64,000 nt of DNA, taken from the NCBI GenBank assembly GCA_003342815.1, contig PTEX01000012.1:69737-133736 (forward strand), given 5' to 3'. The stretch is from Eudromia elegans. Its lineage: Eukaryota > Chordata > Aves > Tinamiformes > Tinamidae. Made by a program: the position numbers and the translations under genes. The number at the start of each line of letters is the position of its first letter. The stretch's first letter is position 1. The notes beneath the pieces are model-generated. The model searched no databases. It saw only the letters and a list, made by a program, of their open reading frames with translations, and had not been told where the DNA came from. Positions 16,501 to 61,500 of the stretch are shown here, piece by piece.

Positions 16501-19500
16501 CTTTTCCTCTTTGTAACTTAACACGACATGTTGAAACAGTGATGAATCTTATGTGCCTGAAATCCATTTCCCCCTTTTTTTTTTCTCTTTTTTTGAGGAG
16601 AGGCTCAAACAGCATATTCTGAGAAGGTACAAAGCGTTCTTTTTCTTTTAATGTTATAGCTAGAGAATGAGGAGGGACTAGTGACATTCACCTCCTATGA
16701 AAATCTGTTAATTAAATTGCTAGTTACATTGCTGATTAAATTGTCTTTCCTATCTTGAAGGTTCCAGACATTTCTGCTTGCCAGTACCCTACCCAGCAGT
16801 CTCTAGACTGCTCCTTTCCATAACCTCTTTTGGTGGAACAGAAAAAAAAATATATATGTATATTTGTATGAAAAAAAAAGTTCTGTGATTTTTGAAGAAG
16901 AAATTTTAGACAGTTATCAGAGATTAGGTCTCCATAGCCTGGTGAAATGTTATCTTTGTGCGCCTAGTCTGTTTTTTCCTTTGATCTCAGGGAAATGGGC
17001 AGCATCAGGAGATGGGCTGGAGAGCATTTGAACTTGAGAACCACTTAGGTGAAAAATCTTTCAGAGGTGTAAAGCAGCTTAGACCTGTCTGCCTGCCCTG
17101 TGTAGCCATGGATGCGGATTCCCAAAACACCTAAATGATTTTTGCAGAGCTCGTCTTGGGGATTTTTTTCCTACCTGGCTGCTGGTGTTTCAGAGCGTGG
17201 CACTGCAAGACCTTGCTGTGTGAGGCCGGCAGTGAGTTGCATCTTGGGACTATTGGCTGGGATCAGCCTCGGCGAAGCAGGGACGGCCTCAGCCAACTCC
17301 CACGACCGTGGGGGTCTGAGCCTGCAGGAGCACTTGCACAAATGGGGCTTCAGGAGTGAGTAAGCCCTCAAGACACAACCTTGTTCCAATTAAGCAGTTA
17401 CATAACTCCCATGCCTGGCAAGGCCCTGAATTAGTTTCTGTGCTCCCAGGATAGGAAAATGTTAAAGCGTTATGTTGAAATGCTTTGCTGAATCACCCGT
17501 GAAACTTTGCAAGCCTGGGCTTTAGTATTTCCATCTTTTTTTCTTTACATTAGTGTTATCTCTTCCCGCTGGAGGCTCCAGACGCTCACTGAGATGTTAA
17601 CTTCCATGTTAGGGCTTCCACTGAGCTCCTTTCTCAGCATTTAAGCTTTGAGGATTTTTGTAAAATGCAAAAATTGTTGGAATTTATGAAGTACAGGAAG
17701 TACAAATTGAGTTTAGTTACTGATGTGGGAGACTTCCGAACATGATATGCTAAAAGTGGAATTGGAAGCATCTGCTTCAGGTGAAACTACCTGCACCATA
17801 AACTGCTGTCCAGCTCCTCACTGATGGCCAAGGACCTGGCCAACTGTGAATGGCCACGGTTAGCTAGAGGAGTGCCACACTTCAAATAAAGTGACAGAGT
17901 GGTGCAAATGAGCATCTCTTCCAATGGTGCCTCTTGAGAGTGATAATGAGCCTCTCTGTGTAATGTAAATGCGTGTCTACATGGAAAGATACCTGGACTG
18001 ATGGGTAACTCATGTGCCTAGGCTCTTAGCTATGTGTAATATTTAATGTAATGTAAACTCAAGTAGATATGGTTCTCAATTTTAATCATTTACAAAAAAA
18101 AAGTAGAAATAATCTTTCTGTTTGCCCCATGACTTATGGAAAAAAAAGAAAAAAAAAACAGTAAAATTAATTTCAATTTTACTGTTGTAAAGTAAGTGGT
18201 GGTGTCCAAAAGAAAGTTCCTTTCTTTTTGAAATGAATTTCAAATCAGTGACTGATAGACTCGTTCCAAGGAGCCTCTCCCTATTGCTCCATTCTGTTTT
18301 CTAAAGCAATAGTGCTGTCATGTAGCATAGCGCTTTAAATGTGAAACCTCACCAGAGTTTAGATACGTTTGAAGCCTGCAAGTGAGAAGAAAGGTTTTTA
18401 ATGAACTGACTGAATGGATGAAGAAGAGTTTAATAATCTATTTACTCCTTGTGGCAGCATTGCTTATCTTACAGGAAAGGTCAATAAAATTGAAACAAAT
18501 TGAGATAAAATTGAATTCTTCCAGAATTCAAACAAACAAACAAGCAGTTCTGTTTATGAATAGATTGAAGAGAAAGAAAGAACTGAATCATTACAAGCAA
18601 GAAGCAGAAACAATGAGAACCTACCTTTTGGAGTCAATGTAAAGAAACTGCATGTTTTATTTGTGAGATCGGGTGTCCTTGTCTTCTGTGTCATCCAACG
18701 TGCCAGAAACAAATGATTTGGAAATTCATCACTGGAAAATAATTTTGCATATCTGCCTCAGAAAATCCCTTTTAGTCTGCTTATAGGGATCGTATGTTCC
18801 TTAGGAACTTTGTAGTTTCTTAGTTTTTAGATCAAATTGCTCAGGCCAGTAGACAGTACCGTAGATTTTGCAAGGAAGAAACTGTTTCAGGAGAAGAAAA
18901 GCAAGAGAAAACACTGAAGAGACTTTCCATCTTCCATTGGAAATGCATTACAAAGGTTTGCAATTAAAAAAACCTCTTGCTGCTCAAGGGTATTCTTAAG
19001 CTTATGAAAGTTTAAACCTCTGTCCTCTGCGAGAGCAAATACAAAGTGATTTGGCTGCTTGCTCAGTGTGGGAAAGCTCAGAACTGCAATGAAATATCAA
19101 AAACAAAAAAAAAAAAGTCTGTGGACTACTAAATTCCTACTACTAAAGGTCCTTCTTAGACCTTTCTAATTACTTATACTTTTTATAATTCCTGCCTTTT
19201 CCTGTTTCATTACTAGAAATCATGGAAAGAGGAGATTTATACCATAGGTTTTCATTTATTCCCTAGGAAATACCTAGGCTTGTGTTGATTTTGGCTTGTG
19301 TCATCCTAATTAAAGTTATACATCATAAACAGAATTGCTGTAAAAACAAAAACAGAAGCAGGTGAATCAGGGCTCCCAGAGAATTTCCAAGAACCCTTGA
19401 GTGAAAAAGGCTTATTTTGCTGGAATGATCTGTTCAGAATTGTGTAAGGGAAACTTGCATTTTTCATTTTGTATCCTTTTTCCATAGAGCAGAGTTTTTC

Positions 19501-40500: not shown

Positions 40501-43500
40501 CTATCTACTGCAGTCCACTTGTATTTATGGACAGAGCAGATAGATTAAGTGCTGTATGCTGTATATGCATCTGCAGCTTTGGAAAACTAAATGAGAAATA
40601 CTCAAATAATAGTGATGCTCAACACAGGAAACACACTGATTGCCTTATTAATTCAAACCCCAAACTCTTCTGTTAAATGAGATAAGAGGAAAGGTAAGAA
40701 ATCTAAGAGGAAGTTGTAAAATAAATTGTTAGTTTTCCAGGTAAGTTTTGCCCTGCTCTCCCTGTAGTTAAACCCTGAACCTGGAATTCTTGACATCTTA
40801 CCTATGTTTTCCCAGCATTCATTATTGAGATTCTTAATCTCAGTAAATTTCCTTTTTTTTTTTTTTTTTCTTTTTGAGTTGGGAGAAGGAAGTTGCTGAC
40901 TTAGCCTCTCCAGGTCATAGATTTTGCATACTCTTCTTCTGTTCCCTCTTTTCAGTGCTCTAAAATAAATGTCAGCAGTCTTAGTAATGCCCGATTTTCT
41001 TCCCATACCTTGTTCTTTGTGTCACCGTTTGTGGCTCCACACCGTTCTGGTACTGCAAGATATATTTTCACATGCAGGTATTCAGTACAGTGCAGTATTA
41101 TTGGATATTGCCACATAACGATGTTATATTTTGCATACCACTTGGATTGTCACTCTTGCAGACTTGCAGTCTGATGTGCCTTTTTTTGCCTCAACTTTGA
41201 AATACAGTGGTCTACTCAGACCTGTTCCAAGCGATGCTCAGAGTGATTTTCTGAGTCAGAATTGTTATCAGTAGTTCTGTTAGCTGCATAAGTGTTTATT
41301 TCTTCCCCTGTATTTATTATTTGAACTTGCCAATATTGAATTTGATTTGCTGTTTTTTGTCTTGTTTCCTAATTTGATTAAATTCCTGTGAAGTGTTTAC
41401 AATTTTGTCAGGACTTGATACAAATACATTTTAGTCATCTGCTCAGTTTTCTACCTCCCTTGCTGCTGTGATCTCTCCAAAACATTAATAAATGCTTTAT
41501 ATAGAAGGACATAATAGGGACACTTGAGTGAATGTCTGTTATCTCTGACATGATGAAAACTGATGGATTAATTCCACTTAGCTTCTCTTTCGTCTTGTTT
41601 GTGATCAATGATAATATTCTGCCACTCAATCCATGCCTGTTAAGTTACTTTAGTAGCTCCATGTGAAGAAACTTGTCAGAAGCCTTTGAAAATCTCCGTA
41701 AATTGATTTCCCTTTATCCACTGTTTTACCGACAAGTTCAAAGAATTCTAACAAGTTAATAGAGCATGATTCACCCTTGGGAATACTGGACTGGTTCTGG
41801 TTGGAACTTACCATATCATGACCTTCCTGCTGTTTCATTATTTTGCTTTTGATTATTGTGTGTTTCCATAGTGCACATGCCTGACTCACTGGTTTGCAAA
41901 GGTTACCAGGAACCTTTTTGGAGGACAGTGTTTGCTTCTCTATAACTTTCTGCAGCCCTCACTCTTCTTAAGTTTGCATTGTGTTGCTTCCAAATGATAG
42001 CATTGTAATTTTTTTCATGTGATATGCAACCACAAGAGAGGAGGGAGCCTTTCATTAGCAAGTCATTGGTGCCCAGAGCCCTCTGTTGGTGCCCAGAGCT
42101 CTAAACCGGCACTAAATGGGTTTAGGTACAAGAGGAGATGCAGTCTTGTCCTGGCACATCTCTATATCCGTACTGACTTGGCCATTAGAGTTCATGAGCA
42201 TAAGCGATGGCAGCTCTTTGGAGCTGTGCTTCAGACTGTTCACCGGATCAAGTGGCTCTTCAGCTTATGGGCAGGCTGCTGAGAAATTGCTTTGTTCACA
42301 GGGTGTGTTTTAAATGTGACCCTAGAGAGGGTAGGTAATTGCGCGGCCCTGTTCGTTATATAATTGTTTCTTTTTACTAGTACCTGAAGGCTGGGATTAA
42401 ATGTAAATTGCTAAGCATAATTTACATATTAAAAAAGTATTTAATTCCAAATTCTACACATGATTGTTTCCTATTCATTGAACTCTTTTAGGTCACAGAG
42501 CTGAATACATGACAACAAGGTAAGGCCTTTTTATTTGACTTGCTTTAGAGAGCTATGCATGTAATAAAATTTGAAAAACTGAAATTTTTAGAACAAGTTC
42601 TTATGGATATATATCTTTGATAAGTTAACACTGAAGAACCTGCCTTCAGCAATGTCAATGTATTTGGTATTTTACCAGGTCTGTATATTGACAGAATAGC
42701 AGGGAGGGAGTGTTGTTTTGCACTGCTTAGTGCAGTACATTTTACATACTTGTGAGTTTCTTTAGTGCAATACCCGTGGGCTTGCACCCACCCATCAGTG
42801 CAGATGAGCTCAGCACTATCGGCAGTATCGGAGTGTGGGGCAACAGCCCGCTCTCAGGTTTGCAGCTGCCACTTGTGGGTGCCCCAGCTGCAGGGAGCAC
42901 CGCTCCATCCTACAGGCAGCAAGAGCATCCAGCCCCACTGCCTTGGGCTCATTCTGCCTTTCCTTTCACATCCCACCCATTGCAGGTCAATGCCTTCCCT
43001 TTCTCCTTTGGACTTTCCCCGCCCCATCCATCAGCTCTGAGTTAAAAGAAAAATAAATATGTTGCCTTCACAACCGAGAAGTTTGTATCCAGCTCTTGCT
43101 CTGCGTTCTAGATTACTTGGCTTCATACTGTCGTTTCTGCTGGGTCCTCATATCCCGGGAACATCCCTACAAAGATTTCAGAGCTCCCTTCCTTCCATAG
43201 ACCCATAGTCCATTTTAACTCTGTCCACTGGACTTTGTCACCCTCTTTCCTTACACAGTTCCAACTGAAAAGTGGTGACAAATCAGAGCGTTCGTCCATA
43301 TTGCTGACATAATTAATGTGCCTGTAAACTTAACTCTGCCCCTACATGCTACCAGGTACCTATGGAGGTCATCAAGCCAATGCGTAATACCCCACAGCAG
43401 GTGACACATCAGGTTCACAGCATCCTAAATTCCCTGTTCTGCAAGTGATTGGAGGAAAATGGGGTACTCAAGCAGGGTTTTACTCAAGCGAAGTGAGGGA

Positions 43501-46500
43501 ACAGCTTGAAGCCATCTTAACGTCTGTCTTCTCACAGCTGGGCACTGAAGTTCTGGAAGGAAGCCGGGAAGGAGCAGGCCCAGCCTCTCTTCCCCGGCAC
43601 CGCTTCCCTGCTCCTGCTGGGGTCTGTCCCTTGCCCCTGGGTTCCCATTGCCGAGACACGCACATGGAAATGTTCTTCAAAGCCAAAGCTAGGATACAGT
43701 AGGGCAGAGGTTTTCTTTAAAGCTGTAGGTGCTATAGGGACAGGCCAGATTCCCACCGCTAATATGTTTTCAAAGTATTGTTCCTTACCTCATCCTCCAA
43801 AAACATTGGATTTTTTGTTGATTCCTGGAAGAGCCATAGAAACATTGGACTGCTGATGGAATCAGAGGAAACTGTTGGCATGCAGAATACCACACTATTC
43901 ACAAGATAAATCACAACTTACAGGAGAATATTTGTTGTCTGTAATCACTTTCAGTCATAGTTATCACATGTGTAACCTGATATAACATCCAAGGTAAACA
44001 TTTTGCAGACCCAAGTTCTTCATGTGTTTTTTTCTTTTTGGGGGCTGTGCTGCATTTGCTTGTTTGTTTTACATGGATGACTTTCTAAAACTTCTTTTAG
44101 CTAATTTGCAAAGTGTTTATTTTTTTGTGTGGCGATGTTAATGATTGGATGCGGAAGGCTCGAGCCCTTCAACCTGACTGGCTCTAGCTGAGAGTGCAGC
44201 CAGTTTGTTCTGAAGTGCCGCAGGTTCTGCTGAGCACCTTTGCATTGCACGGGAGCCGCTCCAGCAGGAAGCAGCCCCCTGCTTAGTGAAAGAGGTGCTC
44301 ATCAGGTCCCGTGGTCCACCGCGGCCAGCAGTGGGGTCCTCAGGGCTGCGGCGTGTTTCGTGCATGACAGCAACAGCAAGAGGCTGTTCCAGTTGTGCAG
44401 CGCTTGGAAAAAATGCATATGATAAAACAATGTACATGGGATTGATCAGGAATGTCATAGTTACCCATAAGGAGCATACCTTTAATGGAAGAGTTCTCTA
44501 ATCACTGTTGCACTTGAATCTGATGGATTGTCTTTGCTTGTGAACTACTGTGATTATTTCTCCCTTTACAATGTTCTGTTGTTTTGCCATGAGCTTGCAG
44601 ACATTTCGTTTTATTGTGTGACTTAATTCTGCCTTTCTCAGTAATGATGTTCCCTTCCCTTAGGCCTCCAAATCTTCCCCCTAAGCCCCAGAAACACAGG
44701 AAGCCCAGACCCCGATCACAGTATAGTGCTAAGTTGTTTAATGGTGATTTGGAAACATTCATTAAGGTACTGGCACCAGCCACCCGGGTGGCTGATCTCA
44801 ACACTTCTCACGATAATGGTCAAGACCTCATGCGAGCTGAGGCAGATCATTATGTTTCAGTCTGTCCTGGGCCTCTTTTCTCACCCAGTTGGTCAATATA
44901 ATACTTCCTGAAGTCAGAAGGAAAGCCAAGGTTTTGTTTCTCACTGCGATTTTGTTAATCACACAGAGATAGTTCTGGCAACCTGGATTTAGGGACCGCA
45001 GCCTCATTTAGAATATAGGAAATAGTGGTGTATCCCACAGCTCAGGACAACTTCCTGCTTGCCATTTGACTACGTTCAGTATTCAAAGTCTGTGAAGAAG
45101 CAGGCTTGAGATCCAGCTCTAGATTTCCTATGACTTTAGGAATTTATTATATTGTGTGAAATTGTGATCATCACTATTCTGGTTCCTGTATCTTTTCTGT
45201 ATTTACTATCTTCTTCTTTTTCCTACTTTTATTTCTAATAATGCTTCTAGCCGGGGCCGAAGGAACTCTCACACAAGACACCAGGTATAGTTTGGTGAAA
45301 AGGGAACCATCCTCTGGCTCAACGTCAGTTCTTTCACTGAGCTGAAAGGAGAAGTTTGCATTAAGGAAGGAGTCCATGAATGGAATGCAGCAGACAAAAC
45401 TGAACCAGAGCGTCACTATGGAGTGACTGAAGTCTTAAATGATGGGTATATCCTAACAAGCACCTGCTCACCACAGTCAATTAATGTTCCTGTGATCAGA
45501 ATACTATGTTAAAGGAGAAAAAAATCTTCAAAAAGTGCATAACAATACATTTACAAATTAAGTGACTGAAATCCTAACTGTAAGCTGTGTGAGCTGGGTG
45601 TGCATGTTACATGGTTTGTTTTTCTCTTGCTGTGAAGCGTTGCTGGCAGCAAGTGTTTTGCAGAGCCAAGTTCTGTCTTCCGTGGCACCACACCAGTTTA
45701 GCTGTCTTTGAACGGCGCTTACAGGCGGCCTCAGTAAAACTCCATGAAAAACGATTGTTGTTATGCAGGTGCTGCAAACCATGGTGCGAGAGATGAGTAT
45801 CACAAGCAATTTCCTGCTAAAAGATGAAAGTAAGCAAAGAAACAGAAACCCGCACCACAAAAATCCCATTATTAGGAAAGCACAAATGGTGTGGGAAGAA
45901 ATGCTGCCTCAGCTTGTTCTCTCTCCCTGAAAGGAGCTCTCCCTGGCAGTAGAGGTGTGAGTTTACTTGCGAGTGCAGAGACTTCTGCCTAGTTCAAACT
46001 CCAGAACCCTCCCTGGCCAAGGAGCCTGTCATTCCTCATAGGGCTGAGTCGCTCCGACAGGCATGAAAGGCTGACAGCTAGTGAAATCCAGCACGGCACC
46101 ACATGGCTTTGCATTACATTTTTGCATCAAAATGCTCATTAGTGAATGAGTGATCATTCACTAATTACATCAGATTAAATTTACAACGGCAGCAGGGTCC
46201 ATGTTCTTGACATCTCACCAGCACAGATTGTTGCTTCAGATTATGTCCCTGTCGTTAGATCCTAACCCAGAGCTGGTGGTTTAGATTATTGAAGAGAGTT
46301 CGTTAACTATGAATTAGTTGCATAGCTTTGAACAGGTGAGACAGCAATTTTCTGTTGGGCAATTTCTTACTGCAAACTGTCTTTTCAGAGGTTTTACTCC
46401 CTTTGCATGAATCAGTGACTAACAGGAGATGTGAGTGCATGCTGTGCATGTGTTCTAATATTTTGGGGGGGAGGCTGGATGTCAAAGGGTTCGGGGTATG

Positions 46501-49500
46501 TGAAGATGACAATAATCCAGGTTTAGAAGTTGACCTATTCCTTTATTTTATTTTATTTTATTTTATTTTATTTTATTTTATTTTATTTTATTTTATTTTA
46601 TTTTATTTTATTTTATTTTATTTTATTTTATTTTATATTTATGATTTTATTCGACTGAAACTGAATCAAGACACAACCCAAATGGAAATTTTTGGTCCAG
46701 ATGCTATTGACTCTGGCTAGGTGTTTTTTGTTGGGTTTAAACTTAAAACAATCGACCCCCAATTTAAGTAGACTAGTTACCAATCCAGTCTTTTGTAAGC
46801 CCCACTAAAGCCACATGGAGTACACAGTAAATGAGGGGTTAAGTTGTCTCAGGAAGTGGATGATTTTAGTGATTCTGTGTGTTATTTTTTCAAATGTATA
46901 AAAAATAGTTGGCTTCCCTGCCTGGACTTAATTAATAATCCTCCCATTAGTGTAAATCGGCGTGAAAATGAAGGACTAGTATATAAGTGAAAAAGCATGT
47001 TTTGAGTTACAAGGTACTTTTAAAATTCATATTTTTGTAGTATAGACTGGTTTTATATTAAACTTAGAGAGGACTTAGTTCTCTCAGTGCTTACATATTG
47101 GAAATTCATTTTGGAAAGAAAAATTATAGCTTTCAAGCCAAGAATTTTCAAGGTGCCTATTATTATTATGAAAAAGTATTTTTTCCAGCATAAGCACTAA
47201 CTTTGCTAAATAATTTTTAATCATATGGTTTTTGTCTTTAATAAATATTTGATGACTGAGAGTCATTAATGTGCATTGGATAAAACACTATTTCTTAAAG
47301 TGCCTCCAAAAAAAACCCACACCTCCAAAGGACTGTGATAGTTCTTTTGGAAAAGAAAGTGGTTTAAAAAAAAAAGGGCTAATCATTCACTGAAAATCAG
47401 TGTATGGTCAATTCATCCCCCTGACCCTGCAAGCGTTTCTTATATTAAAACACCTCTTTTTAGCAGTGTCACCCTTTTTTGTCAGCAGTTTTCCCCTCTC
47501 CTCCCACTATCTTCATGGATTAGGCCTTTAGCATGTAAGACTTTCCCCACCAGGAGAAGAAAGGTAAGGTAGATGAATGTGGAATGATCATCTTCATGGT
47601 GCCATTAACATTAAATTTCAAAAGAAAAAGTTCACCGCTTTAACACATTTTGCTTCCAGAGTCTAAACTGAATGCATGAGCTCAGATGTCACATACAGTG
47701 TTAGGCAGATACGATAGTAGAGTCAGAGCATGGAGGCTGCAGATTTCCTGATTCGGTGTTTTTCAATAAGAACGTTAATCCTTTCTTTTCTCCTCTTCCT
47801 TCTCTCCCTCCCTAATGGGAAGAGAATTCAGTTAGAAATGATTTTGTGGTGTTGTGGGTTTTATTTTTGTCAGCACTGTATGTCCATCTGGATTGATAAG
47901 AAAACTAATTTTCACGTTCACTCTAGGGTAGGGAGTTTCCTCTTTCAGGTTTGCAGTACACATTTCTGCTTCTGTCTTTGCAGGATTCAGGACAAGTCAT
48001 TCCTCTCATTGTGGAAAGCTGTATCAGATTTATCAATTTATATGGTGAGCTCTAAAACACTTTATGACATTTCTTTAATCCCCTGGCTATTTCGTGGGCC
48101 TTTTTCGTGGGCCTACAGCTTTCTCAAACCTAAAAATAGATTCGTTTCTCACCACTTTCCCCCATCTTTGCTTCAGGTCTTCAGCATCAAGGAATTTTTA
48201 GAGTGTCTGGTTCCCAGGTGGAAGTCAATGATATTAAAAATTCATTTGAGAGAGGTAATTGCATTTTCATATATTCAAGCACCTTAATATCTGACACTTA
48301 AAAAATCTGTTAAATTCTAATTGCTTTCCTGGCTTTCTAGGTGAATTGCCATGTACTTTGTGTATTGCTTCTAAAACTTTGCATCATCGTATTCCTAATA
48401 GAGTCTGATGACGACCTGTAAATGCTTTTCCCCTGTAGAGTCTCAGGAGCTTGAGGTTGTGTTCTACCCTTTGTGTAGCCAAGGCGTACGACTCTTGAAT
48501 TAACTGCAGACTTTCTTATTTTGTTCATGGTAAACTGCAAGGAATGTTTTTGTCTATATTGTACTTTGAGGATCTTCAGAAAGGAAAGATTATCTTTTTT
48601 AATGAGATTCAAGAGACTACTTAATGCAATTTGAGACTGCCGTTATTTGATCTTGTGGAATGTGAGCGCTCGGCTTTCGAGTCCCTCCGCCAAAGCCACA
48701 TCCGATCAGTGCACTCGCAGGTTGTGAAAGAGCCATTTCCATGGTCAACCACTGGTTTCATTCCTGAAGGAAGCTTCAACACCAGAGGAGGAATCAAGGG
48801 AAAGATGCCAGGAAGTGAAAAGAGCTTTTTAAGCATGACGAGCTGGCAATGCCGAGCCTAGGATTGCTCTGCTAGCGCAGCCACAGTCCAAGAATCCTCT
48901 AATTGTGTTTGAACAATACCCATTACATTGTTTTTCAGTTATATATCCTCTTGCTTGGATTTTAGAACCTATATTTTAATTTCCAGATCTTTTGCAGATT
49001 ATCTGCTAATAGGAAAACCCTTGGAGCAATAAGTCTCGTGACTGATAGCATGAAAAAATACACACAGTATTTTTTGTCCTGGTATTAGTTATGTATCTTG
49101 TTAAACCTGATATAGTCCTTGACAAATATATGAGGCAGCTTTTTTTACATGCTAAATGAAGCCACAGTCTCCTTTTAATTTTAAATCTGCTCTGTGGTTA
49201 ACTGCTTCTACTAGGTAGCATTATTCTGGAATATGTCTACATTTCAAAATGCTTCAAAATAAAGATCAAGTCTCTAAAACGCACATAGTCCAGTCATGGC
49301 TTTTAGGGTTTCAGTTTCCCTACATTGTACCGCAAAACTGTTGAATGTATTTCTGAATGTTACGGGGGTTTTTTAGAATGAATGTAGAAAGATTTGCAGT
49401 TTGGAGAGTTATTTTATTCCATTTGCTTTATGTAAGGTCCCAAATAACCCGAGAAGGCCTCTTCAATTAAGAACAGTTGCTCTTTATTTTAGTAACAAAA

Positions 49501-52500
49501 AATCATGACATATCCAGAAATGCACTGTTGGAACTTCAGGGCCTAGGAGATCAATAGGTTATGTAATTTGAAGAAACCTTTTTTCACACTGCTATTTCCG
49601 TTTAGTCACAGGCCGAGATTTCTAAATCAATGTTTATTATCTTACTTGAATGCTTGCATTGCCACCTCCCACACAGTACAACCAAAAATCCCACAGTGTC
49701 ATTCCCGTATACAAATGTTGCATGCAAGCATTCCCCTGCATGTATGTTTTACTTGGTTTATTTACTTTTTTAGGTGAAAATCCTTTGGCAGATGACCAAA
49801 GTAACCATGACATTAACTCAGTTGCTGGAGTACTGAAGCTCTATTTCCGAGGGCTGGAAAATCCTGTCTTTCCTAAGGAAAGATTTAATGATCTTATTTC
49901 TTGTATCAGTAAGTAGAAATCCTTATTTCTTTCTCCTTAGAACTGTGTTTTCATATATACAGTAGCAGCCTGCAAAAAGAGCTAAATTCACCGATTCTTG
50001 TTAGACAATTTGTTTGCCATCTGCAATAGTCTGGGTGGGTTGTTAGTCATACTTGCAGCTGTGGTCAATGCCTCTCTCCGGCAGGATTAATGTACAGTGC
50101 AAGTCTTTGTTGAGCACAGCGGGAAGAAAATCTCCCAGTATATGAGAGATAGTCAAATTTACACGCAGTGTTGTTTTTCTCGGCCCGCTGGGGCAGACGG
50201 ACGGGGATGGAGTCATGACCGTGCAAACAGAGTGTGTGACTTTGCACAAAGGTTTTCATACCCTGCGGTATGCAGTCGGTGCTGGTGAATAAGTGAATAG
50301 CTGTTGGACACTGTGTGGTGCTGGACTGTAGCCCAAACCCCCCAGGTCTGGTCCAGCTGCTGGAGCTGCTGGGCGCAGGCCCTGCGGGCTGGAGGATGCT
50401 CTGCATTCCAGCCTCGAGCAGGATGCTCCGCAGGACCGATGTGAGTCAGTCTGCTGCCTGCAGCTGGGCACGGCGGCTGTAGGGATTGCGGATACTCCCG
50501 GCGGATGGCGGAGTCGCCCAGGAATGCACGAATCCCCTCGCAGGGCCCAGGTGCCTGCAGATGCCTGTGGAGGGGTGAGGCCGAGCCAGCAATCAATAGG
50601 TTCACTGTTCCTTGCGGGTCTGTGAGTAGCAGGCAGAGCTGCTGGCTTTGTGGAAGGATTTCCTCCTCAGAGCCCCTTCCTTGGGAATCACTGGCTTCAG
50701 CCAAAAGCAGAGAGGCCGTTGCGCCCGTCCCGAGGCCCTGGGGACGGGAAGGAGGGTGGGCTGTCTGCAGAGAGTTGGCCCGGCCCAGGAGGGCAGGGCT
50801 GCATGGGGCGCCTGGAGCCTGGCGCATGCCCTCTCCTCCCCATGCAGGGAGCCGGGGCTGCGGCGGTCGGGCACGGAGGCTGCGGAGCTGTGCGGCGCTG
50901 CACCCGCTCTGCGTGTACCATTTGGGCTTGGTCAGGACACACCTTGGCCCTCTTCTGCAGCTGTCCCTGCTGACAGGCCCAGGGGTACTGGAGGGAGCTC
51001 CAGACTGCAGGCTAGTGGCCTGGTCCCGCACAAGAGATGATCCCGCACAAGGGATGATGCCCTGAAGGGACACTGTGTCTTCAGGAAGTGTAGTATTGGT
51101 CCTGAAGCATTCTCCCTCAGCTGCCTGCTGGGCCACAGCCCAGCCAATGTCTGAGAGTCGACTAAAAATGAAAGCTGAAGAGGGATCAGTCTAGCTGAGC
51201 TTGATTTTTTGCATGATAGGAATGCTAGGACTTGACCTGATCATTCCTGCATGGCTTTGCAGGAGTTATCTTGTGAATGAATTAAAGTATATCCAGTGGA
51301 AAAAAACCCCACTGATTTAATGACTTCAGTTGACAGGTAATCTACCACATCCTTGGAAAAGCTGTTAAAATGATTAATCACTTTAATCATTACATGTGTG
51401 TGCCAGGTTTCCTTTTCAAAATTTCTGCTGTCACATTCTGCTCTTTGGACCTCTTTGTGGGATTATTATTTTGACTAACCATTAAGAAGAACAGGACTGG
51501 TAGTCTTATATGTGGAAGTAGTATTGCCCCCTACTTGCAGATTCCTCCACTTGTGCTGGACGGCTTTAAATAGAATTGGGAAATACCAAGGGTGAGTATT
51601 CAGCTTACAGACACTGCACATGTGAGGGCTTGGGAGATGGAAAAATATCTGCCCAGACAACCTCTTAAAGAAGAGGAACCTGCCTGACTTCAACATGTCT
51701 CCATTGACCACGGATGCTTTTTAAGAGAGACTGAGATGTTTGGAGCAGAGGCAGAGGTTCAGCAGACTGAGCATTTGTGCACAGGGGATTAGCCAGCTTC
51801 TCCGAGGGGTCCGGCCCAGTTACCCAAAATGGTCATTTGTTATAGAGAACTTCTAACAAAACTGACAATGAATACCAGATCTCTAACACTGGGTTGTGGT
51901 TTCCTTAGAAGAGGTCCAAGTTTTGCAAGTCAGGATAGGCTATAGAGAGGCTTCTTTCATAAGGGGAATTGACAACCTCTTTTTATAACAGCATCATGCA
52001 GTAGAACTGAAATCAGTCACAAACAGTCGTGAGCAAAGTCACTGCTTTCCCAGATACATTTTAGAACGGCACAGTTATTGGAAAAGGACTTATTGCCATC
52101 TGATCCTGTTTTTAAACTGATTTTTTTGAGACTGTTGTTTGCTTTGGTTTCCCCAACACTGTCTATAGAGCCACTCTGTAAAGTCCTGTGAATACTTCCT
52201 TCAGTGGATGGAGAAGTTTGGCTTTTATCAGCACAAAAAGGGTTTTCTTGGAGGCATACTGGCATGCCTTCATTTTCTGTAGTCACAGGAGGAGTTTTGA
52301 GCGTGGTGCAACAAGAGAAAGAAGCAGCTCTTGCAGCCGTGTCTGCAGCCTGCCCCCGAATCACAGCTGGCCGGCGTGGGCCGCGAGCCTGCAGCCTCGG
52401 AGTACCCGAGGGGAGCCCGTGGCTCGCTGCTTTTGCAGCTGTGTGCCCGCCCTGAGCACTTCACCAAACTGTCCACTGCTTCCAGGGAATATGATGCTTT

Positions 52501-58500: not shown

Positions 58501-61500
58501 TAAAGTATCTTCTTATGCTTTACAGGAATAGACAATCTCTGTGAGAGGGCTCTTCACATCCGCAAACTCCTTCTTACTTTGCCCAGGTCGGTCCTTATAG
58601 TGATGAGATACCTCTTTGCCTTCCTCAACCAGTAAGTGCTTTAGAATTCCTCAAGATACGGTATCTTTTATGTACCTCTCTTTGCGGGTATCCCAGTTTG
58701 TTGTGTTCACTCATACTCAGTGGAGAATTTATACTGAAGCTCCATTTAACACAAGAGATAATATTTTAATTGGCAAAGATAGTAGAAGTAAAACAGTTTT
58801 CATGCAAATTAGAATTCCATTTGTCCAGAACTGAGCAAAGTTCTAGTAAGACAGATATTGTCTGAAATGGGGAGTGCAAGTAAAGTACAGTAAGAAAAAT
58901 AACATACACAAACTGTAGCTACATTAAAAATAATCTATATAATTTAAAAGTAGATTTTTTTTCCACATCCCAAGCTGCTTTTAATCTCTTGATGGGAAAA
59001 ATACACAACACACACACAAGCAATGCAAGTACCACAAGCCACTTACTTGATGCTAGGTTCAACCAGAGAGAGACTCCATGTTTCTGCTTGTATTTTCTAA
59101 TAATGGGACTACAAGAAGGGAGAATGTATGTATGTGTGTTTTGATATAAACTAGTTGGATTTTCACATTACAAAAGAAAGGCAACTTCTGAAGAATGGAT
59201 ATGCAAGCAGGTAGACTTCCTGTCTCCTGCTTAAACTTCCAAAGTTATATTGAGTTGCTCAAGGATATCTCGGGACAGGCTTTCTCCAGGCACAGAAAAT
59301 CCACAGCCTCTCTGCACAGCCTGTCCCAAGGTGAAGATTTTTTTCACTGCTGCCAGTAGGAATCTCCCTTGCTGCAACTTGTATCTGTTGCTTCTCATCC
59401 TTTTGCCGAGCACCTCCAAGAAGAGTCTTGCTCTATGTGGTCTATACCTCCCCTTTAGGTAGTTGAAGATTGCAGCTAAATTCCCTCTTCCTCTTATGTA
59501 CTCATTGTGCACCAGCCCCCTAACCATTTCTGTGATCTTTCTCTGAAATCTACACATTTTATTAATTTTTCTTGTATTGGAGGCCCGGAACTGGACACGG
59601 CATCACAAGTATATCTACAAGAGTGCCAAGTGGAGGGGAATAATCCCTTCTCTTGCGCAGTTGGGCTGTGCTCTTCCTAACACAGCCAGGATTGCAATTA
59701 GGCTTCATGGCTGCTGGGGAGAATGTACTGAATCAGGTCCAGCAGGACCCCACTGCTTTCCCTTGGTTGCTGCTACCCAGCCAATCAGTTCTGGACAGTA
59801 GTAATGTGTGCAATTAATCTGTCCCTCGCGCAGAACTTTGCCTTTATCGTTAATGAACTTGATGAAGTTGCCATTAGCCCATTGCTCTGTCCTGTTAAGG
59901 TAACTATATGTGCTGACCGTGTCCTTCAGCCTGTCTGTTGCTTCCTGCAGCGTGGTGCCATCTGCAAGTGCCTGCCAGCCCGCTGACCAGGCTGCTCATG
60001 AACATGTGGAACAGTGTCAGCCCCAGCCATGGCCCCGTGGAGCGGTGCCCGTTGCCACCAGCAGCACTGCCCATGTTTCATGATGACAGTTACCACTGTC
60101 TGTCTTCTTTGTTGCACTACCTTGTGCGTATATAGAGGATGGAACAGAAACACCTTTATCTGTAAGAATAAGATGTCTCCAATTAGCACACAGGCTGGGA
60201 TAACAGTACATGGCATAGGAAAAGGCAGAGCGAGGATTGATTTGGCAGGCAGGTTATAAGGGAGTCATTCAGAAAGCTTGCTGCTTCAGCTTGTCTTGCT
60301 TGTGTGTGGCAAACTCTCCAAAATTCCCTTTCTGAAGGGAAGATACTGCTGTTTTTAAACACAAGCAGATATACTGATTTAAACACAAGCAGATATACTG
60401 ATGCATTTACTGATTCAGCGTGCAGAAAAGTACTGAGGTAAAGGGTGTCCAAGGGACTTGGGTTGTGTTTGACTGGCCCTGCACAGAAGCAATCAAAAGC
60501 CAGGGTCTCTTGTGAGAAATTTGAACTAGGGGAATAAAGAGCAACCTTCCATTCAAAATCCAAGTTGATAACTGATAATACTGAATTTTCTGAAGGAAAA
60601 AAATAGCATGCAGAAGTTGTTTAATAAAAATAAGTCTTTTGTTCGGATGATTCCAAGATGAACCTCCCATGGGATTTTCTGGGCAGAAGAAAAGGTGTTC
60701 AAGGATTTTAGGTTGCTTCGTGAAAACAGAAACTAGGAGTCACAAGAGCCTTTGTAAGAACCAGGAACTGAGTTACCTCCAGAGGACAATTCAGTCTGCC
60801 TGAGTTTTATAGCCAGTGGATGGGAAAGATGCATCAGGGTCTAATGAGAAATGGTAAGTATGCAAACCCATTTAGGATCCAGTCCACTTGGGCCTCTGAG
60901 GATAAACCCTGATGAGATAAAGCAGTAGCAGCTGATGCATTTTACATTAGCCCATTAGCTCAGTGTACGCTAAACATAGCAGTGCAGAAGCACGTATGCA
61001 CACACATGTACATACCAGAAGCTCACTTTGTAATTTATACTGGCTATTGAAGAACTCCCTTTTTCTTTTTTTTTTTTTTTTTTTTTTTTAATGTTGTGTT
61101 GGAGTAAGTGTCAAGGAGAACAGGAAATCTCATTGTCTCATTGTGAGGAAGTGAAAATTTCTCAACTTTTTAGAATAAGCTTGATTGCAGTGGATAAGTC
61201 ATTTTTTCCTGATTTTTCTGTTCTAACAGCCTTTCGCAGTACAGTGATGAAAACATGATGGATCCGTACAATCTGGCCATTTGTTTTGGGCCAACACTGA
61301 TGCCTGTTCCAGACATACAAGACCAGGTGTCTTGTCAGGCACATGTAAATGAAATAATAAAAACTATCATCATCCATCATGAAGCAATTTTTCCAGATGC
61401 TAAAGAACTTGATGGCCCAGTGTATGAAAAATGTATGGCTGGAGATGACTACTGGTAAGTCCAAGTATTATTCTTCTATCTCCTTAACTAAACCTTCAGA

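Follow-up and report, generated by a model that had tools for sequence, protein, structure and literature searches.

Exons IIIb and IIIc of the FGFR2 gene are homologous to each other and similar in length. PMC7764535 states in a legend, on the authority of Jones et al. 2001, that inclusion of both exons, or of neither, shifts the reading frame and leads to a premature stop codon. Events of an either-or type have also been catalogued for SRGAP1: a study of human microglia in Alzheimer's disease (PMC10548223) names, among its significant events, an 'MXE of exon 12 of SRGAP1', and the TCGA event SRGAP1|93242|ME appears in two further papers (PMC8141138, PMC9355308). The text of PMC10548223 that describes the event gives no coordinates, and its exon 12 is equated with the exons described below by exon number only. 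Both the SRGAP1 event and the principle of ‘policing’ by the reading frame can be regarded as essentially known, having already been published; for the same position in SRGAP2 or SRGAP3, no report of mutually exclusive exons was found among the open-licence papers searched.

The srGAP proteins, in which a membrane-bending F-BAR module is paired with a RhoGAP domain, steer cell shape and migration. An either-or exon conserved where those two parts meet would be well suited to adjusting GAP output with the rest of the protein untouched. The analysis described here concerns such a position within a stretch of 64,000 nucleotides from the bird Eudromia elegans (the ‘window’). Its best explanation is that two exons, termed 12a and 12b, form a mutually exclusive pair in SRGAP1 that is older than the split between SRGAP1 and SRGAP3, a reading to which a probability of roughly 0.85 is assigned.

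The gene and its exon 12 position

The window lies on contig C14 of the genome that was searched (944 Mb, 723 contigs). The original prediction had named the gene SRGAP1, and an SH3 exon located downstream of the window (C14:138595) bears out that name: from AIAKF onward it is identical, up to the last residue of the chain, to the solved SRGAP1 SH3 domain 2gnc. The SRGAP2 chains 2dl8 and 4rtt outscore 2gnc against this exon (120 and 119 bits, with 4 mismatches in 58 positions, versus 114 bits) because they are longer, and no SRGAP3 SH3 domain is found among the three matches listed. A 117-residue F-BAR stretch of the gene on contig C36 is closer to solved SRGAP2 (246 bits) than is that of the window gene (207 bits), which identifies C36 as SRGAP2; contig C679 we take to carry SRGAP3, by elimination and from its likeness to the human sequence. 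A fourth, ARHGAP4-like srGAP was not found with exon 13-14 and SH3 queries, which recovered three srGAP genes only: matches outside these three contigs were 27-43% identical among the 15 listed for exons 13-14 and 29-41% identical among the 14 listed for SH3. The exon 13-14 search of the genome was lossy (the window's own exon 14 is missing from its list), making its misses weak evidence, and an ARHGAP4-like gene was either overlooked, is absent from the assembly, or has been lost.

The elements that make up the exon 12 position, numbered from the first letter of the window, are as follows.

42492-42519, plus strand: SRGAP1 exon 11, the upstream constant exon, 28 nt, ending in AG at phase 2; homologues of 28 nt in SRGAP3 and SRGAP2
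44664-44766, plus strand: exon 12a, 103 nt, 35 residues, with the RhoGAP lead-in encoded at its end; SRGAP3 homologue of 103 nt
44767-44772, plus strand: donor of 12a, GTACTG, without G at +5
45140-45250, plus strand: region upstream of 12b, AG-free for 109 nt (45140-45248) and rich in pyrimidines near the acceptor, whose AG closes the region
45251-45284, plus strand: exon 12b, 34 nt, giving 12 residues with the preceding AG; homologues of 31 nt in SRGAP3 and SRGAP2
45285-45290, plus strand: donor of 12b, GTATAG, without G at +5
47984-48044, plus strand: exon 13, the downstream constant exon, 61 nt, starting at phase 0
48177-48254, plus strand: exon 14, 78 nt, with the arginine-finger codon AGA at 48200-48202
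48199-48201, plus strand: TAG, reached with 12a and 12b both included; an equivalent place exists in SRGAP3
49774-49908, plus strand: exon 15, 135 nt
49834-49836, plus strand: TGA, reached with 12a and 12b both skipped

Exons 12a and 12b both have AG/GT borders and lengths of 1 modulo 3. Because exon 11 ends at phase 2 and exon 13 starts at phase 0, whatever fills the position between them must be 1 modulo 3 in length, and so two such exons, or none, shift the frame and bring a stop at or before the catalytic core. When the four combinations are spliced in silico, 11-12a-13 and 11-12b-13 both stay open through exons 14 and 15; 11-12a-12b-13 ends at the TAG in exon 14 (53 nt from the exon end), and 11-13 ends at the TGA in exon 15 (72 nt from the exon end). 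SRGAP1 contains, in other words, two adjacent exons that each fit the same flanking exons. Both premature stops have introns downstream of them, further exons with donors being present at 58632 and 61455, and a premature stop followed by an exon junction, the arrangement that in FGFR2 is associated with nonsense-mediated decay (NMD), is thus found in the both-in and the both-out frames alike.

Every predicted value holds, from the exon borders and lengths to the dinucleotides at the splice sites and the places of the stops, and the four-way test agrees with the proposed one-of-two logic of the frame; the predicted loss of the RhoGAP domain is likewise seen, in that neither the both-in nor the both-out SRGAP1 product has a Pfam RhoGAP match. 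Two statements call for adjustment. The TAG was correctly placed, but instead of lying ‘just before’ the arginine-finger codon it overlaps that codon by two bases; and the claim that the cell ‘must choose’ one exon is right in that other combinations would give broken products, but overstates the obligation, since the logic of the frame shows no more than that.

Two other features lie in the introns of this region. A TTTAT pentanucleotide repeat of twenty copies (46542-46642) is found between 12b and exon 13, and a stop-free frame of 325 codons (50213-51190, minus strand) is found in the intron after exon 15, with no Pfam match at E values up to 0.01.

The corresponding position in SRGAP3 and SRGAP2

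In the same genome, SRGAP3 has the order and phase found in SRGAP1: exon 11 (28 nt) is followed by 12a (103 nt), then by 12b (31 nt, with the peptide RGRRNARMRNQ) and then by exon 13. The 12a peptides of the two genes are 74% identical over 35 residues, and the SRGAP3 12b, located between SRGAP3 12a and exon 13, is intact, with AG/GT borders and the right phase. In-silico splicing of SRGAP3 leaves the 12a-only and 12b-only frames open, each exon again fitting the flanking exons; on double inclusion the frame ends at a TAG that overlaps the arginine-finger codon and lies, as in SRGAP1, 53 nt short of the end of its exon, while the double skip stops in exon 14 (versus exon 15 in SRGAP1).

These observations bear directly on the origin of the pair. 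It had been suggested that an ancestral choice existed and that the paralogues then each settled on one version, with SRGAP3 fixed on 12a, SRGAP2 fixed on 12b, and SRGAP1 alone still choosing. The first part is supported, since the pair is present in both SRGAP1 and SRGAP3 of one genome, and so would be ancestral at least to these two genes. The second part fails for SRGAP3, where a check of the introns for the ‘other’ exon recovered the intact 12b and refutes fixation on 12a at the level of DNA. Only SRGAP2 appears reduced, 12a having been found there neither by the genome search (which is lossy) nor by a local search with positive controls. The account in which each paralogue settled on one exon is the least probable of those considered here.

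The codon at which double inclusion stops in both genes is relevant to a further explanation, in which the pair acts as a productive/unproductive switch whose regulated double inclusion or skipping lowers the level of SRGAP1 via NMD, beside the production of two isoforms. Introns do follow the stops of both wrong combinations, and double inclusion in SRGAP3 ends at the same codon and the same distance of 53 nt from the exon end, its double skip ending in another exon. There is, however, no sign of selection for such ‘poison’ products, because any two exons of 1 modulo 3 would shift the frame alike and because the shared TAG follows from the TTT-AGA codons that the arginine-finger motif has in common in SRGAP1 and SRGAP3. 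A switch of this kind is considered unlikely.

The conservation of 12b was assessed by collecting stop-free AG/N/GT candidates of eight lengths (22-43 nt, 1 modulo 3) from the exon 11-13 interval of each paralogue, and ranking them by summed BLOSUM62 score. Among the 59 candidates in SRGAP3 the 12b-like exon has the top score (38, followed by its own shorter versions at 27 and 22, with the next unrelated candidate at 5), and it also leads the 73 candidates in SRGAP2 (score 26, with its own shorter version at 21 and the next unrelated candidate at 6). Between SRGAP1 and SRGAP3, 7 of the 11 residues of 12b are identical, and by a codon-table count the codons differ at 4 of those 7; with its peptide kept and its codons changed, 12b is, on this comparison, coding and not a product of chance. 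It might still be supposed that 12b is little used or a relic in SRGAP1, leaving 12a as the sole working form in this animal, and the donor GTATAG without G at +5, together with the short length of 34 nt, would agree with that; but the conservation of the peptide with SRGAP3 and SRGAP2 through synonymous changes, the intact splice sites and phase, and the human exon 12 event named in PMC10548223 make it very unlikely. The mutually exclusive pair is, on present reading, real, conserved and functional-looking, the use of either exon in the animal being a prediction from DNA.

In SRGAP2, exon 11 (28 nt) is followed at the same position by a 12b-type exon of 31 nt (SGRRSSTIRKQ), and skipping of that exon brings a stop in exon 13. 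The exon has a tandem acceptor, with sites six bases apart (C36 minus strand, oriented index 17810-17816), which would yield exons of 31 or 25 nt; the resulting forms, SGRRSSTIRKQ and RRSSTIRKQ, are both in frame.

The whole-genome search with 12a, although lossy, listed two places, SRGAP1 and SRGAP3, and none in SRGAP2; the local search likewise gave no convincing relic of 12a in the SRGAP2 introns. (In these tests and in those for RNA duplexes below, ‘shuffles’ denotes first-order Markov resamples rather than exact dinucleotide shuffles.) When SRGAP3 12a is aligned locally with the SRGAP2 intron between exons 11 and 12b, the score is 17, reached by 8 of 300 shuffles, or by 2 of 100 when both introns are taken together. 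The corresponding values for SRGAP1 12a are 57 of 300 and 46 of 100; the scores of the two 12a peptides against the SRGAP2 introns were reached by 92 and 80 of 100 shuffles; and end-to-end alignment gave 28 of 300 (SRGAP3 12a) and 55 of 300 (SRGAP1 12a). Because the other alignments are unremarkable, and because eight nucleotide tests were made in the 300-shuffle round, the score of 17 was treated as chance. SRGAP2 thus seems to be down to one exon, of the 12b kind, and since 12a holds a general RhoGAP lead-in, the loss of 12a from SRGAP2 would be favoured over its never having been there.

Splice signals and the RhoGAP lead-in

A G at +5 is missing from all five donors at the exon 12 position of the three genes, versus 5 of 29 other donors (Fisher p = 0.0009, the paralogues not being independent; GT was sought within two bases, and 9 exon ends with unclear borders were excluded). 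The AG-free stretches at the 12b acceptors are 109, 72 and 73 nt long, versus 20-63 nt at 14 other acceptors of exons 11-15. Together, such donors and acceptors fit two weak, regulated exons. The intron between 12a and 12b, with GT-AG borders, is 484 nt long in SRGAP1 and 1392 nt in SRGAP3, lengths that rule out simple steric exclusion, and the borders give no indication of U2/U12 incompatibility. Among 14 pairs of flanking regions in SRGAP1 and SRGAP3, no RNA duplex stands out: the best, formed by the region downstream of 12a with that upstream of 12b, is the lowest pair in both genes, and shuffled sequences did as well 4 times in 60 for SRGAP1 and 7 times in 60 for SRGAP3. With long introns, GT-AG sites and no duplex, no exclusion mechanism is visible in the sequence.

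Exon 12b was also considered as a possible SRRM4-type neural microexon. A UGC lies at -9 in 12b of both SRGAP1 and SRGAP3, but the triplet is not distinctive here: of 17 acceptors inspected in these genes, 7, those two included, have a UGC within 20 nt. No evidently relevant paper on SRGAP1 and SRRM4 was found among the open-licence papers searched. The motif TGCATG, which we take to be an RBFOX-type site, occurs 7 times on the plus strand of the 5.5-kb interval between exons 11 and 13 in SRGAP1 and is not found in that of SRGAP3; in the window as a whole, 56 copies are found on both strands versus 56.1 expected. Three of them are clustered downstream of 12b, in a span of 47 bases (46404-46450).

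The two forms of the protein are unequal in sequence, a point absent from the original prediction. Their Pfam RhoGAP scores are close (86.6 bits for the 12b form and 85.8 bits for the 12a form), for queries that end at exon 15 and so cover model positions 1-83 of 148. Against solved RhoGAP chains (among which chains of one protein recur), 25 of 30 matches to the 12a form start in or before 12a residues, five of them (ARHGAP1 chains) starting before 12a, in exon 11; the lead-in encoded by 12a is aligned, for example, with KVYCCDLTTLVK of beta2-chimaerin. Of the 27 matches to the 12b form, only 4 extend into 12b, and three of these do so by a single residue. The 12a form gains 7-10 bits over the 12b form for three chimaerin chains and 3fk2, and 1.4 bits for 5irc; 5jd0, 5jcp and 1grn score slightly better with 12b. 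So 12b replaces the lead-in of the RhoGAP fold with an arginine-rich peptide, and the 12b form is probably unlike the 12a form in the strength or the target of its GAP activity, although neither the similar Pfam scores of the core nor the several solved RhoGAPs that gain little or nothing from 12a point to a changed activity.

How the pair might work can be outlined as follows. One exon would be picked in cells by regulated competition between two exons with weak donors, and splicing errors would be cleared by NMD, as reported for FGFR2 IIIb/IIIc. The choice would alter how the F-BARx part is joined to the RhoGAP core, either by a proline- and basic-rich linker with the usual lead-in (12a) or by a short arginine-rich peptide without one (12b). 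A broader proposal, tentative at best, is that an ancient switch in SRGAP1 and SRGAP3 adds or removes the RhoGAP lead-in and thereby sets GAP strength or target, and that SRGAP2, having lost 12a, is locked in the 12b state. If this were true, it would help to explain why the role of SRGAP2 differs from those of its sister genes, and the contrast between two paralogues able to switch and one that seemingly is not would offer a clean test.

Comparison with known systems

Within the family, the SRGAP3 pair is like that of SRGAP1 in order, phase, flanking exons and the TAG codon met on double inclusion, and differs in its 31-nt 12b, its 1392-nt intron and the exon in which the double skip stops. 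SRGAP2 shares the 12b-type exon at the position and differs in that no 12a was found, in its 31/25-nt tandem acceptor and in a skip that stops in exon 13. The human isoforms, of 1085 and 1062 residues for SRGAP1 and 1099 and 1075 for SRGAP3, differ by 23 and 24 residues; these gaps equal (103-34)/3 and (103-31)/3, as would be expected if, in each of the two genes, the choice between 12a and 12b is what distinguishes the annotated isoforms.

The human SRGAP1 events share the gene and the type of event in all three papers as cited, and in PMC10548223 the exon number as well; they come from RNA-seq of human tissue, whereas the pair described here belongs to another vertebrate and is known from DNA alone. 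With FGFR2 IIIb/IIIc the likeness lies in the frame, either exon being acceptable and both or neither shifting it to a premature stop, as in the legend of PMC7764535. The difference is that 12a and 12b are unrelated, at 103 and 34 nt and with peptides unlike by eye, rather than a homologous, tandem-duplicated pair. Exon anatomy, frames and stops are matters of observation, as is the matching pair in SRGAP3, which is new here at the level of DNA, as are the corrected account of the paralogues and the swap of the RhoGAP lead-in. What these points add to the published SRGAP1 event and to the FGFR2 principle is conservation and correction, and not a new kind of system.
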